Shown piece by piece: positions 1,724 through 6,102 of a stretch of DNA of 6,513 nucleotides. A model generated the notes under the pieces. It made no database searches and was not told the DNA's origin. It was given only the letters and a program-made list of their open reading frames with translations. Source of the stretch: Holophagales bacterium (GTDB taxonomy: Bacteria > Acidobacteriota > Holophagae > Holophagales > Holophagaceae); assembly GCA_031283145.1 (NCBI GenBank), contig JAITCJ010000098.1:1-6513 (forward strand), read 5' to 3'. How positions within the stretch are numbered: the stretch's first letter is position 1; the number at the start of each line of letters is the position of its first letter. The translations under genes and the position numbers were made by a program.

Positions 1724-1758
1724 ATTAATACCAAGTCGCGTTCAATTGACATTGAACG
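1724..1758. repeat. Family A repeat, partial copy (A1)
   Basis: ATACCAAGTCGCGTTCAAT matches the arm of the complete copy at 2176-2216. Here the expected right arm is degenerate. Only the inner stem GTTCAAT/ATTGAAC (1740-1746, 1751-1757) is intact. It stands in inverted orientation to the right arm of the copy at 1835-1882, so these two could also be the ends of a small element. Confidence 0.55.
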
Positions 1759-1769
1759 CTAAAACGCCA

Positions 1770-1811
1770 AAGTTTTTGAAAAACAGGGAACCCCTGATTT
1801 TTCAAAAACTT
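1770..1811. terminator. Long hairpin with bidirectional terminator-like core
   Basis: Arms 1770-1783 and 1798-1811 pair perfectly for 14 bases. Inside them CAGGG (1784-1788) pairs with CCCTG (1792-1796) around a 3-base loop, with one bulged A. The core reads A-run, CAGGG stem, T-run on either strand, which is the shape of a bidirectional intrinsic terminator. It could stop transcription running from the transposase-like ORF or toward it. It may equally be just part of the mobile element's structure. Confidence 0.5.
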
Positions 1812-1814
1812 GCG

Positions 1815-1834
1815 GGCGGCGATTACTCGCCGCC
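1815..1834. repeat. GC-rich 8-base-pair hairpin
   Basis: GGCGGCGA (1815-1822) and TCGCCGCC (1827-1834) form a perfect 8-base-pair stem around a TTAC loop. It sits 3 bases after the preceding hairpin and directly abuts the next one. No T-run follows, so it is not a typical intrinsic terminator. Confidence 0.7.
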
Positions 1835-1882
1835 ATACCAACTTGCAATCAAAAGTAATGCCGTTTGATTGCAAGTTGGTAT
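1835..1882. repeat. Family A palindrome (A2), 19-base perfect arms
   Basis: Arms at 1835-1853 and 1864-1882 are perfect inverted repeats starting ATACCAACTTGCAATC, with a 10-base loop. The same arm sequence makes the palindrome at 5561-5614, while the loops differ. Confidence 0.85.
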
Positions 1883-2175: not shown

Positions 2176-2216
2176 TATCAAGTCGCGTTCAATTGGGATT
2201 AACGCGACTTGGTATA
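2176..2216. repeat. Family A palindrome (A3), CGCG-type arms
   Basis: CAAGTCGCGTT (2179-2189) pairs perfectly with AACGCGACTTG (2201-2211). The outer part ends in GGTATAA on the right, with two bases missing from the left arm. It shares the ATACCAA end motif with A2 and A4, but its stem bases differ in both arms together. It is followed after 12 bases by the family B hairpin. Confidence 0.7.
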
Positions 2217-2228
2217 AGAAAGCACTCT

Positions 2229-2274
2229 CAACAAACATGAAAAACAGAGCGCAGCCTGCTTTTCATGTTTGTTG
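2229..2274 (-). repeat. Family B hairpin (B1) just after the stop of the 777-residue gene; candidate terminator
   Basis: Arms at 2229-2243 and 2260-2274 pair over 15 bases (core AACAAACATGAAAA). An inner CAG/CTG stem lies beyond one mismatch. It begins 7 bases after the stop codon at 2282. A second copy with nearly the same sequence lies at 5613-5656. On the minus strand the core reads AAAA, short GC-containing stem, then GTTTTT, so it could act as a terminator or an RNA 3'-end stabiliser. The GC stem is short, so terminator strength is uncertain. Confidence 0.7.
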
Positions 2275-2281
2275 GCTGTAA

Positions 2282-4615
2282 TTACTTCAACTTTGCTTCC
2301 CAATCCCTCGCAAGTCTTTCCTGACCCAATGCTTTGGCTAATTCAAGTATTTTTAAATTATCTGTAAATTTACCGCCGCTATCCAGCACGGCGTTAAATA
2401 TTTCGTCAGCCTCATGGTACTTATTGTCATGCAGATATGCTTCAATAAGCGGCAAGCCAACCTTGAAAGCGAGCGAATTAATATCTAACAGTTTAAGAAA
2501 ATATTCATCATCAGGCGCGTTAATCCTTGCGTATTCTCTGTCCCAGGCGGTTTTTAGCAGCTCAATGGCTTTGGGCCAGTTGCCGTTCTTTTTGCACTGC
2601 TGATAATACTTATCAATTACAAAAGCAGGCGGCACTGTTCCTGCCTGGGAAAGCGGGCTGAGTTTTATCCTGTCCAAAAAAGTGTCAATGGAGCGGTCAG
2701 CGCCTTCTATTGCTTGCCACAAAAACCACTGACTCCATAATGTATCCGAGGATGGCTTCCTCTCCAGCAGTGATTCAACATTAGCCAGCCAGGGCTTAGA
2801 GAGCGCTTTCATGGTTGAATTCTGTATTGAAATTGTGTACCGCGCGACTAAAGTCATATTCACCACTATCTCAGGATAATCTCGCAATACTCTGTTCAAA
2901 TATCCAACAGCTTCGCCCCATAGGGTCCCGTCCTGTTCTTTAATCGCTTTCATAGCGTTTTCGTAAATTAATCCAAAAGCGTATATAAGCTCAAGCCCTG
3001 GTTTGTCTTTGTTAGTCTCAAGGTATTTTTTTAATAGGGATTGGGGAGTTTCAAAATTGAAACGGTTTAAGATAGACTGAATATCATCCTGTTCAGGAAT
3101 AGCTGTACCCTGGGTCAAAACCAGCCCATCCCGCGCGATCAGAGCCCATCTGTTGCCATCGTTTTCTTTCCAGCCCAATGTGTCAATGGCAGAATCATCA
3201 GAATCAACTTGTAAGACAGAGATATTGGGGGAAAGTTTTTTACTCAGTTTTTTAAAGTTAAAATAATGATCATTTTGATCGCCGTTGTCACTGGTAAATA
3301 CAAAAAAACAGGGTGAATCTGAATTATTTAAAATGGGCTTCATATAAGGCGCCTTATTTATAAGCTCGCCCTGTTCCCATACTTTAGCAATATCCTCCAT
3401 GCCGGCAGACCTGGCGGCATTGGCCGCGATCAGCGCGTTGTTCGATTCATATTTATCAAAATTCGTTTTTCCATAAACACGAATCATTTCATCATAAACT
3501 CTGTTTGCGCCCTCAATGTCGCCTAAGCGCAGCAGGGCTTCGAGATGGGGCGCGTACGCTGATTTTGCCGGATAGCCTTCGAGTGTTGTTTCTGGGGAAG
3601 CAGCAAAAAACATAATAGGAGCAGAGCCAGGCACCCACTCTGTGGTTAGCGAGGTCCGTGGAGAACCGTAAAAGTCCTTTGCCATTTTCGCAAACTTAAT
3701 AACAGAGAACCAATCCTTTTCAGCCCTAAGTTTTTCAACGATCCAGGCGCACGCCTTTGCGGTGGGGGACATCGTTCTATAAAAAGCAAATGTATCAAGG
3801 GAATTAATAAATGTATCCCACTTGTAATCAGGCTGGCTCTTTGCCATCCAGAGCCAAATATCCCATAGGGCGTCGCTGGTGGGTTCCAACCTGATGGCTG
3901 ATTCCAATTTGGAAATATGTTTACGGAAAACATCTCTCATCAGATTGCTGCGTCGCTCCGGCTGGCTCTTATCCGGCTTGAAAAAATCTATATTAATGCC
4001 CAGCCAGGAACCTCCGAACACATTGTCTGTCTCGGCTGCCATAACGCCCCAGACACGCAGGTCTGTCTCAGTGTCAAGGTCTTCGGTTGTATCCGGCGGC
4101 ATTTTTTGAAGGGCGCGGCGGCGAACTTCTTTTAACAGGTCTGCCTTGGCATCTAAATGATCCTGGTTTTCGCGCAAAAACTCACGAACTCTTTTTAAGG
4201 GTGTTTTAATGCCATTTTTCTCCAGTACTTGTTCAAATTCTTTGGGACTTGGGATATTGGCTCCGAAGACGATTAATTTGTTTCCATGGTCCAAGGCCGC
4301 CCACTTGACGCCGCCGATGAGACCATATATCTGCCTGAACCAGCGCTCAAAGGCCTGGATGTTTCTCACGCCAAGGTAGTTGCTGCCGTCGGCTTTGAAG
4401 CTGCCTTGGCTCAGCGCTTTGAAACCGTGTTCATAAATACCGTCAGAATCAATGACTCGCTTCCATTTTCCTGTGTCGGCGGTCTTCCAGTTGCCTAAGA
4501 GGACTATTTTGTTCCCCTTATGCCTGGTCAAGTTGTACTCAAAATCTGTCTGTGATAACAGCGGTACGTTTAGCAATATTGTTACTATGGCCGGAAGCGT
4601 TAATTTCTTGCGCAT
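2282..4615 (-). CDS. Secreted 777-residue protein, tandem duplication of thioredoxin-like plus helical-repeat unit
   Basis: I do not recognise a named family. A Sec signal peptide is visible (basic MRKK, hydrophobic residues 5-20, cleavage probably near 20-22), so it should act in the periplasm or outside. Two similar halves follow. Each has a beta/alpha segment resembling a thioredoxin fold without a CxxC site (about 33-132 and 434-520), then mostly helical, TPR-like sequence (about 138-418 and 523-777). Matching landmarks are KWAALDHG (104) with RWALIARDG (489), TP at 138 and 523, PTSDALW (245) with PSSDTLW (621), DTF at 267 and 644, and AKVWEQG (410) with ARDWEAK (769). AGGA lies 6 bases before the ATG, and the gene starts 18 bases after the ptb stop, so they are likely one operon. 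A scaffold or binding role is only a guess. The gene is real; the function is unknown. Confidence 0.85.
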   Translation of the reverse strand: MRKKLTLPAIVTILLNVPLLSQTDFEYNLTRHKGNKIVLLGNWKTADTGKWKRVIDSDGIYEHGFKALSQGSFKADGSNYLGVRNIQAFERWFRQIYGLIGGVKWAALDHGNKLIVFGANIPSPKEFEQVLEKNGIKTPLKRVREFLRENQDHLDAKADLLKEVRRRALQKMPPDTTEDLDTETDLRVWGVMAAETDNVFGGSWLGINIDFFKPDKSQPERRSNLMRDVFRKHISKLESAIRLEPTSDALWDIWLWMAKSQPDYKWDTFINSLDTFAFYRTMSPTAKACAWIVEKLRAEKDWFSVIKFAKMAKDFYGSPRTSLTTEWVPGSAPIMFFAASPETTLEGYPAKSAYAPHLEALLRLGDIEGANRVYDEMIRVYGKTNFDKYESNNALIAANAARSAGMEDIAKVWEQGELINKAPYMKPILNNSDSPCFFVFTSDNGDQNDHYFNFKKLSKKLSPNISVLQVDSDDSAIDTLGWKENDGNRWALIARDGLVLTQGTAIPEQDDIQSILNRFNFETPQSLLKKYLETNKDKPGLELIYAFGLIYENAMKAIKEQDGTLWGEAVGYLNRVLRDYPEIVVNMTLVARYTISIQNSTMKALSKPWLANVESLLERKPSSDTLWSQWFLWQAIEGADRSIDTFLDRIKLSPLSQAGTVPPAFVIDKYYQQCKKNGNWPKAIELLKTAWDREYARINAPDDEYFLKLLDINSLAFKVGLPLIEAYLHDNKYHEADEIFNAVLDSGGKFTDNLKILELAKALGQERLARDWEAKLK

Positions 4616-4633
4616 TATTGATCCTGTAATAAA

Positions 4634-5536
4634 TTATACGCTCATGGCGGCCAGGGCAATTGAGTACAACTTTGTCTTTACGCTGTCGCCGCGGCTGGAG
4701 AGTACGCAGGGAGCCTTCGCGCCGACAACCATCGCCCCGACTTCGCACCCGAATAACTTGGTCATTGTCTTATAAAACACGTTTCCAGATTCAATATTGG
4801 GGAATAACAGGCAGTCGGCGTCGCCCGATACGGGGCTTCTGACGCCCTTTATGTCGGCGCTCTCTCTGTCAATCGCTACATCAAGGGCCAGAGGGCCGTC
4901 AATAACAGCGCCCTTGATCTGGCCTCTGTCGCCCATTTTGGCCAACAGGGCGGCGTCAACACAGGCGGGCATTTTTGGCAATACTTGCTCGCTTGCGGCC
5001 AGAATGGCTACTTTTGGCGTTTCAATTCGGAGCGATTTTGCTGTGTTGACCAAATAGTTAAGTATGGCCGTTTTTTCTTTCAAATCCGGCGCGGGTATAA
5101 CCGCCACGTCGCCAACAATAAGTAATTTGTGATATCTGGGGTTTTCTACAACCGTGACGTGGCTCAGTATGGCTCCTTGTTCCATCAGACCCTGATCTTT
5201 ACTGAGTATCGCTCTCATATATTTATCGGTAGAAAGGATGCCTTTCATCAGTACATCGCCCTCCCCCGCCTTTACCATAGCCACCGCCCGCGACGCGGCT
5301 CCGGTCTCAACAGGTTCATTGATTATCCTGAAAATACCGGGGTCAATACCGTTACCCTTACAGATTCCCAAAATCTTTGACTCGTCACCTATGAGGATGG
5401 CCTCTGCTATGCCCGCGTCCACGGCGTCTTTCACGGCTTCAATCGTGTGTTCGTCATTTGCGGCGGCGGCCACTAATTTTTTTCGGGGCTTGCTTCGCAG
5501 GTCGTCCAGCATCTGTTCCAATTTGGTAATGGGCAT
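4634..5536 (-). CDS. ptb: Phosphate butyryltransferase / phosphate acetyl-butyryl transferase family enzyme
   Basis: This cytosolic enzyme family exchanges CoA for phosphate on short acyl groups (butyryl-CoA plus phosphate to butyryl phosphate plus CoA), usually paired with butyrate kinase to make ATP. At 300 residues it has the usual Ptb length. Visible family motifs are DVLMKGILSTD (94-104), IDGPLALD (212-219), SPVSGDAD (234-241), PNIESGN (246-252) and GAKAPCVLSSRGDS (272-285), with the typical C-terminal TKLYSIALA. All are intact, so activity is expected. The start is supported by GGAG 5 bases upstream of the ATG. No acyl kinase follows; the next gene is a secreted protein 18 bases downstream. 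Sequence motifs alone do not separate butyryl from acetyl, propionyl or branched-chain acyl substrates. Family confidence is high, substrate confidence moderate. Confidence 0.92.
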   Translation of the reverse strand: MPITKLEQMLDDLRSKPRKKLVAAAANDEHTIEAVKDAVDAGIAEAILIGDESKILGICKGNGIDPGIFRIINEPVETGAASRAVAMVKAGEGDVLMKGILSTDKYMRAILSKDQGLMEQGAILSHVTVVENPRYHKLLIVGDVAVIPAPDLKEKTAILNYLVNTAKSLRIETPKVAILAASEQVLPKMPACVDAALLAKMGDRGQIKGAVIDGPLALDVAIDRESADIKGVRSPVSGDADCLLFPNIESGNVFYKTMTKLFGCEVGAMVVGAKAPCVLSSRGDSVKTKLYSIALAAMSV

Positions 5537-5560
5537 AGGAACTCCATGTAAAAGGGATTA

Positions 5561-5614
5561 TTAATACCAACTTGCAATCAAACGAAATACCGTTTGATTG
5601 CAAGTTGGTATTAA
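5561..5614. repeat. Family A palindrome (A4), 24-base perfect arms
   Basis: Arms 5561-5584 and 5591-5614 are perfect inverted repeats running from TTAATACCAACTTGC to AAACG around a 6-base loop. The central 19 bases of each arm equal those of A2 at 1835-1882. It occupies the gap upstream of ptb, 25 bases from the ptb start, and its last two bases overlap the family B hairpin. In the ptb-operon transcript it would fold strongly in the leader. Confidence 0.9.
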
Positions 5615-5656
5615 CAAACATGAAAAACGGAGCGCATCCTGTTTTTCATGTTTGTT
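5613..5656 (-). repeat. Family B hairpin (B2) just after the stop of the DUF4920-like gene; candidate terminator
   Basis: AACAAACATGAAAAAC (5613-5628) pairs perfectly with 5641-5656, and an inner GGA/TCC stem extends it. It begins 11 bases after the stop codon at 5668. The AGCCAACAAACATG flank on the minus strand is shared with B1. The core is again an A-run, a short stem and GTTTTT, so it may end or attenuate transcription before ptb, or stabilise the upstream mRNA. Confidence 0.75.
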
Positions 5657-5667
5657 GGCTATAAAAT

Positions 5668-6102
5668 TTACTTGGCTACCGCTCCTAAGCCATTAATCCT
5701 GACCTTGATTGGGGTTGCGTCTTTCTTTTCGCCGTGTTTGGCCGTATCTTCGGCTTCACAGTGTTCTTCTGTCGCTTTTGGTATCATTTTAACGACTATG
5801 CCTTCCGCAACGACTTCCTGGCCTTTAAGCGTGACGGGAAAAGAAATTACGCCGTCTTCCACTTTGAACACGATGCTATGGGCACGCTGATCTCCGCTAA
5901 TCGTGATGTAACAGCCCATTGAGGGGCAGACATCAATGATTGTGCCGCGAACTTGGACCAGCTTACCGTTGTAAGCATCCGGGTTGGTCAGTATGTCGGA
6001 GATATTTGTTTCCTCTTTGAGCGTCAGCGGCTTGCCGAATTGCTGGGCCATCAGCGGAGCGGCCATGACTAAGGGAAGTAAAAGTGTCAGTTTGCGGATC
6101 AT
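5668..6102 (-). CDS. Secreted DUF4920-like small domain protein
   Basis: This 144-residue protein has a clear Sec signal peptide (MIRK, hydrophobic stretch, probable cleavage after Ala19 in APLMA/QQ), so it is predicted to be periplasmic or secreted; there is no lipobox. The mature part fits the DUF4920 pattern: FGKPLTL near the N-terminus, NPDAYNGKLVQVRGTI (40-55), the signature VCPSMGCY (58-65; Cys59 and Cys64), then VFKVEDGVISFPV and a GQEVVAEG strand (94-101). The many short strands suggest a small beta-barrel, possibly OB-like, which is inference. A C-terminal extension carries His114, Cys115 and His123, which with the Cys pair could bind metal or form disulfides. AAAGGAGG lies 6 bases before the ATG. 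The gspF-like gene ends 78 bases upstream and ptb follows after 131 bases. Biochemical function is unknown for this family as far as I know. Confidence 0.8.
   Translation of the reverse strand: MIRKLTLLLPLVMAAPLMAQQFGKPLTLKEETNISDILTNPDAYNGKLVQVRGTIIDVCPSMGCYITISGDQRAHSIVFKVEDGVISFPVTLKGQEVVAEGIVVKMIPKATEEHCEAEDTAKHGEKKDATPIKVRINGLGAVAK

Follow-up and report, generated by a model that had tools for sequence, protein, structure and literature searches.

The 6,513-nucleotide stretch of Holophagales bacterium DNA analyzed here (the window; contig C12 of an assembly of 1.32 Mb, or 1,324,862 bases, in 207 contigs and 64% complete) carries, close behind the stop codons of two genes, two copies of a hairpin-headed repeat termed B, which occupies at least 96 sites in the same genome. 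As read from sequence comparison, the odds are about even (a probability near 0.5) that B is a dispersed hairpin resembling the repetitive extragenic palindromes (REPs) of other bacteria, likely spread in the manner of a miniature inverted-repeat transposable element (MITE), and that it would act as a structure at gene 3′ ends. The evidence lies in the anatomy of the element, its position and orientation at stop codons, the base pairing of its stem, and its occurrence at orthologous stops of a sister species.

Anatomy of the B element

In its full form, B is about 140 bp long, bounded by the terminal inverted repeats TATAGYCAATTAAC...GTTAATTGRCTATA and headed by the hairpin. The terminal repeats start and finish in TA, and both ends carry TAG. 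Aligned in the sense of the adjoining gene, the element reads TATAGYC, the hairpin AAYNAACCTGAAAAACAG-loop-CTGTTTTTCAGGTTNRTT, and then the tail GAGAGTGCTTTCCCAGAGGCTGC..CTACAGAAAATCTTCAGGCTGGTTCAAGC..GTTTGTGTTGCTTTTAAAGTTAATTGRCTATA; the foot is TATAGYC in most of 40 aligned copies, and bears neither a GTAG nor a CGTC tag. A match to the right end was found in 21 copies among the 96 sites, some of the 21 being loose, while in many copies the tail is absent or interrupted by another repeat. The 96 sites were merged from 146 matches to a covariance model built from 40 copies, and are a lower bound, since scoring covered the best 150 out of 1,065 first-look candidates. Eight of the 96 fall below 40 bits; some of these (C163, C11 and C201, for example) are partial copies and were retained in the count. 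The covariance models used throughout were made from copies in the same genomes that were searched, and the stop-codon test described below is independent of their scores.

With terminal inverted repeats, a non-coding body, a length below about 200 bp and numerous copies, B has the build of a MITE. Two other repeat families, one of about 161 bp (12 copies) and one of about 231 bp (11 copies), join ends like the B right end to another body (examples are C192:10934-11094 and C34:185-416), and all three may belong to a group served by one mobilizing enzyme. A search for B-type end pairs within 4 kb of each other, covering 453,739 of the 1,324,862 bases, returned the ~161- and ~231-bp repeats and no clear transposase-bearing copy. 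B would have inserted by transposition at TA sites. Its ends read TATAG...CTATA, and the orthologous empty sites are too diverged past the stop to reveal a TA duplication.

The same anatomy suits a possible though doubtful alternative, in which B is a selfish MITE without a function for the cell that enters TA-rich DNA, is purged from genes and promoters, and survives at or just behind stops, where insertion is nearly neutral given a TAG at both of its ends. Terminal inverted repeats, other repeats with the same ends, stops that lie within the element, pairs of filled and empty sites between species, and copies in gaps between head-to-head genes all speak for it. Where it falters is in the orientation of B at stops.

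Position and orientation at stop codons

At 45 of the 96 B sites, a sense gene has its stop codon between −20 and +13 nt relative to the hairpin foot, with the hairpin towards the gene; the antisense control, taken at the other foot, gives 7/96. In 20 complete contigs (251,502 bases, 186 called genes), a randomly chosen non-coding position lies at a stop in 5.9% of cases, compared with 14 of the 25 B sites in those contigs alone. When a stop at either end is counted, B reaches 49/96, followed by the repeats listed as C (17/69) and D (7/38) and by the right-end palindrome of the A family described below (4/28). Genes were called by our own procedure of open reading frames (ORFs) and codon scores, and individual stop offsets may be wrong.

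The two ends of the element are not equivalent in this respect. Among the 21 copies with a right-end match, the stop adjoins the hairpin end in 12 and the other end in 1, within a window of −25 to +20 nt, slightly wider than the −20 to +13 nt of the other stop counts. When both groups are measured in one window, 5/23 of the same-end repeats with another body are stop-adjacent versus 12/21 full-length B copies (p 0.03), a comparison in which 10 of the 23 have a B no further than 300 nt away and so are not a fully independent sample. A selfish MITE leaves both the bias of 12 versus 1 and the lower stop rate of the same-end repeats unexplained. More congenial to it is the origin of the stop itself, which lies within the element at 19 of the 45 stop-adjacent sites, being the element's own TAG at 6 and a stop in the hairpin arm, at +1 to +13, at 13. 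Stop-adjacent genes show no significant excess of TAG (15/45 vs. 72/273, p 0.37).

Base pairing of the hairpin

Across 33 hairpins from both B-carrying species, 93.4% of the cells of the alignment pair, and double-sided changes occur in 12 of the 21 pairs. The covariation score is 0.314, against 0.128 in shuffled alignments and at most 0.087 when the arms are slid, bearing in mind that related copies raise such scores. These changes are distributed unevenly: a single double change falls in the nine upper-stem pairs (columns 19-27), against 63 in the eleven lower pairs. What is conserved in the upper stem is thus the sequence, and in the lower stem the pairing. The tip, AAAAACAG...CTGTTTTT, is invariant, with CAG...CTG followed by TTTTT, and the covarying lower stem continues beyond this U-tract. 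Single-strand folding backs the hairpins as well, with z scores of −3.3 and −4.3 for the two in the window and −7.3 and −6.4 for two in the sister species (G001).

The tip resembles the A/U-flanked stem-loops of low-GC firmicutes, for which bidirectional termination or RNA stabilization has been put forward as possible (PMC1590033). That likeness, the place behind stops, and the retention of the hairpin at two orthologous stops would befit native intrinsic terminators, possibly bidirectional, that are alike through duplication and not mobile. Such an origin is nevertheless rather improbable, given terminal inverted repeats, a long common tail, a covarying lower stem past the U-tract, window copies that a terminator scan passes over, copies in head-to-head gaps, and the absence of B from two congeners. 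Because no B hairpin in the window is flagged and the lower stem extends beyond the U-tract, a general 3′-end role is favored over classical termination. In RNA, the B hairpin would stand close behind the stop or overlap the reading frame, where it may act through termination, 3′-end protection or damping of translation.

A hairpin of variable arms whose pairing is kept, placed straight behind a stop, also calls to mind the attC recombination sites behind the cassette genes of integrons. Sites of that kind have GTTRRRY/RYYYAAC ends, stand in cassette arrays of one direction and are served by IntI. The B ends, AGYCAAC and GTTGAGA, are unlike this familiar consensus, adjacent copies run in both directions (two sites on contig C8, for example), and the element extends far past its hairpin. 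B is most unlikely to be an attC-like site, a judgment made with no search for an IntI integrase.

Sister species and orthologous stops

B extends to one relative. The first B model found matches in one of three congeners, G001, a sister species whose genome is 92% complete, and none in a further 57 genomes sampled from the family (with the best 60 candidates of each scored, under stricter filters). A B core pattern occurs 38 times in the own genome, 6 times in G001 and not at all in the other 59 genomes, and the exact core has no match in a genome contig collection from which records near the own genome may be left out. A second model, made from 13 hairpins of G001 and 20 of the own genome, gave 69 matches in G001, merged to 36 sites (a lower bound, with the best 150 of 1,870 candidates scored), and none in the further congeners G012 and G021. 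At 15 of the 36 sites a stop is adjacent on the scored strand, and at 22/36 at either end, compared with 5.8% per orientation. The G001 copies have the same hairpin head, and a number of them share, by eye, another tail, GAAAA..TTGGRCYNGGCTT..AAGTC.

Other repeat families extend across the genus, whereas B turned up in no species but the own one and G001. Short repeats at L246 (C192), ~15780-15906, and at L247 (C14), ~13994-14049, have many copies in the B-free G012 and G021.

Eight G001 B sites have alignable own DNA within about 260 nt, and as that own DNA is enriched for B loci, the counts of shared sites that follow are biased upwards. At two of the eight (C203/L103 and C9/L098), the hairpin stands straight behind the stop in both species; both of its arms have changed between them, and the DNA beyond scarcely aligns. 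At one more (C48) the hairpin aligns within the same gap of both species, at two the own genome has a B elsewhere in the same gap, and at three it has none at that place. In the reverse look-up, the hairpin is absent from G001 at all three own B sites taken. At C192, the own protein (...MKTPQFF) stops on the TAG of the element, and its G001 counterpart (...MRLPIF) on a TAA. At C14:13069, the own protein finishes within the hairpin and is roughly as long as its relative. The own gene at C14:745 retains its own stop, and B lies some nucleotides behind.

A hairpin kept at orthologous stops, with unalignable DNA beyond it, is a further feature that a selfish MITE leaves unexplained. Taken together, the bias between left and right ends, the contrast with the same-end repeats and the shared orthologous hairpins point to the hairpin as the reason why stop copies are kept; selection, on this reading of B as a 3′-end structure, would retain many of the stop-adjacent copies. 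A bolder version holds that one head travels on a different mobile body in each species, drops onto stops, supplies both the stop and the RNA 3′ end, and then loses its tail, with selection keeping what is left. This version is unlikely; if it were true, gene ends would have been rewritten genome-wide by one element.

Evidence against a mobile 3′-end element

Several observations weigh against B as a mobile element that serves as a gene 3′-end structure. The first concerns its location: 11 of the 68 gaps that hold a B lie between head-to-head genes, and of the 40 copies in gaps between codirectional genes, 28 run in the sense of the genes and 12 are antisense to both. B is thus not confined to gene ends, as an intrinsic terminator would be to the 3′ ends of transcription units. 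Nor is nearness to stops peculiar to it, as the C palindromes too exceed random there and the D palindromes are also frequent. The second concerns termination: none of the B copies in the window is picked up by the terminator scan, and a single B hairpin flagged on the 17-kb contig C204 is flagged solely on the strand opposite to its model orientation. The third concerns the covariation, since hairpin-templated mutation without selection could yield paired changes in the arms. Finally, the stop offsets rest on home-made gene calls, the orthologous sites yielded no proof of a target duplication, and the searches found no transposase for B.

Likeness to known repeats

In position B resembles a REP, and in anatomy a TA-ended MITE. 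In two species, most REPs sit in gaps where two genes converge, no more than 20 bp from the 3′ ends on either side (PMC3733652). In Escherichia coli, 260 of 496 REPs lie within 15 nt of a stop and have been proposed to regulate translation (cited in PMC12306157), and REPs less than 16 nt from the stop lower translation (PMC12306157). REPs also aid Rho-dependent termination (PMC2817692) and are insertion hot spots (PMC1525189). B palindromes are similarly dispersed and close to gene 3′ ends (45/96, and 15/36 in G001). However, REPs carry a GTAG/GTGG or CGTC tag at one foot (PMC2817692, PMC3733652), whereas B lacks a GTAG or CGTC tag and its hairpin heads an element of ~140 bp with terminal inverted repeats.

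A place close behind stops, as in REPs (PMC3733652, PMC12306157), might suggest that B is a true REP mobilized by a REP-associated tyrosine transposase (RAYT). This is very unlikely: the foot is untagged, the terminal inverted repeats lie ~140 bp apart, and the Y1_Tnp domain (PF01797) has 0 matches in the own genome (64% complete) and 0 in G001 (92%), both of which are incomplete. Mobilization by RAYT was set aside because neither B carrier yielded the domain. CGTC REPs for their part lack a dedicated transposase (PMC3733652). A Y1_Tnp transposase gene does occur at L292 (G021:C144:6538-6900), in a congener without B.

TA-ended MITEs are below 200 bp, non-coding, bounded by terminal inverted repeats and present in many copies, and the mRNA effect of one such family, ERIC, depends on its orientation (PMC2229807). 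B shares with RUP, ERIC and Correia-type MITEs its length, non-coding body, TA-ended inverted repeats and multiple copies. It differs from them in that one end is a long perfect hairpin that faces stops (12 vs. 1) and in that no mobilizing insertion sequence was identified for it. With the A/U-flanked stem-loops, B has in common the tip AAAAACAG...CTGTTTTT and the place behind stops, but it is a repeat family, its covarying lower stem runs past the U-tract, and its window copies go unflagged by the terminator scan. No report of the B family was found in the open-access literature.

The window sites and the A family

The features of the window are as follows.

1728 to 1882, plus strand: full 155-bp A repeat, parent family of the A palindromes, at ~40 places in the genome.
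2176 to 2214, no strand: A-type palindrome of left-end sequence, outside B, with 14-nt arms that are 93% complementary.
2216 to 2281, minus strand: B head with foot motif ACAGCC and tail start GAGAGTGCTTTCTT, cut off before the A palindrome.
2230 to 2273, minus strand: B hairpin following the stop of the 777-aa gene, stop offset −9.
2282 to 4615, minus strand: 777-aa gene, stop facing B, with weak TPR/PPR-type repeat matches at the Pfam cut-off.
5564 to 5611, no strand: A palindrome of right-end sequence alone, outside B, with arms of at least 19 nt.
5613 to 5656, minus strand: B hairpin following the stop of the DUF4920 gene, without a tail, stop offset −12.
5657 to 5663, minus strand: TATAGCC foot motif, the B left terminal repeat.
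5668 to 6102, minus strand: DUF4920 gene, stop facing B, DUF4920 domain confirmed.

Stop codon and B foot are 8 nt apart at the 777-aa gene (stop at the complement of 2282-2284) and 11 nt apart at the DUF4920 gene (stop at the complement of 5668-5670). In gene sense, both sites run from the stop codon across this short spacer into the B hairpin and on to an A-type palindrome. An earlier note on the window, made from its sequence alone, had described this arrangement accurately, including the two palindromes and hairpins, their order and orientation, the minus-strand stops beside B, and the DUF4920-like character of one gene product. It had taken the two sites for a single A-B module present twice, and there the sequences diverge. 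The two window B hairpins are 92% alike over 52 nt. The A palindromes, one of left-end sequence (at 2176) and one of right-end sequence (at 5564), are not copies of each other; their stems differ (AAGTCGCGTT... vs. AACTTGCAATCAAA...) and have mainly the ends in common. Moreover, B is truncated differently before A, after ...GAGAGTGCTTTCTT at one site and straight after the hairpin at the other.

Genome-wide counts bear out this separateness. The A element, 155 bp with the ends ATACCAA and TTGGTAT, has near-complete copies that are 95-97% alike; its ~40 places are a lower bound (40 of 58 candidates scored), and its right-end palindrome occurs 29 times in the own genome by an exact-end pattern. 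An A-type match lies no more than 200 nt from B at only 6 of the 96 sites, always on the side of the tail; two of the six are in the window, and one is an overlapping weak match. By chance, 2.9 to 4.2 such sites are expected if 40 to 58 A places fall in the non-coding part of the genome. Beyond the tail (n = 96), the closest of the listed repeats is an E-type end at 26 sites, C at 13, D at 5, A at 4 and none at 48, the E-type end pattern also picking up the right end of B itself; on the upstream side, 91/96 sites have no listed repeat. A and B thus occur mostly apart, the very outcome that the earlier note had named as fatal to its proposal. That A and B form one composite unit moving together is most improbable: identical order and orientation twice in the window, with four more B sites that have A on the tail side (the weak match among them), stand against 90/96 B sites without a nearby A, where three to four with A would arise by chance, and against window copies that differ in A sequence and in where B is cut. 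The composite unit was rejected on these counts. The further suggestion that one hairpin recruits the other finds no support among the tail-side neighbors, which are mostly E-type, C or none. The A palindromes are best seen as repeats separate from B, neighbors in dense intergenic repeats. What survives of the proposed dispersed 3′-end hairpin belongs to B, for which tabulated offsets and orientations do reveal the enrichment at stop codons (45/96 at a sense stop vs. 5.9% at random, and 15/36 in G001), and not to the A+B pair.

A elements also lie at, or within ~110 nt of, contig ends in C7, C34, C48, C49, C54, C63, C117, C147, C153 and C165, so the family probably fragments the assembly and is under-counted. 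In the window, nested inverted repeats (1677-1704/1921-1948 and 1571-1600/2008-2037) surround the full 155-bp A element, forming a repeat within a repeat. Beside these repeats, a 139-aa ORF at 1125-1544 has no Pfam family at E 0.001; its sole NCBIfam match is to a phage portal model, weak and below the cut-off, and presumably it resembles the start of a transposase.

Rfam gave 9 matches in the window up to E 1, all far under gathering scores. Six more loci, including L174 from an unrelated member of the Bacteroidales, had no match at gathering. Positions 2170-2290 have no match among plasmid records. At L165, a locus of a Holophagales bacterium metagenome-assembled genome with the nearest named match (84% aa identity) to the phosphate butyryltransferase-like gene of the window (ptb), only ptb aligns with the window, and the locus gave no hit to the B core pattern. 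The ptb match makes a Holophagales host probable.

Biological significance

Palindromes on the stop side of genes are well known in bacteria, but it is difficult to tell working gene ends from tolerated parasites. B lends itself to this question in that it has a clear head and tail, and in two sister species orthologous stops that carry it can be set beside others that lack it. There are also repeats that have its ends but not its hairpin, and together these comparisons make the proposition that a mobile element becomes a 3′-end structure testable gene by gene.

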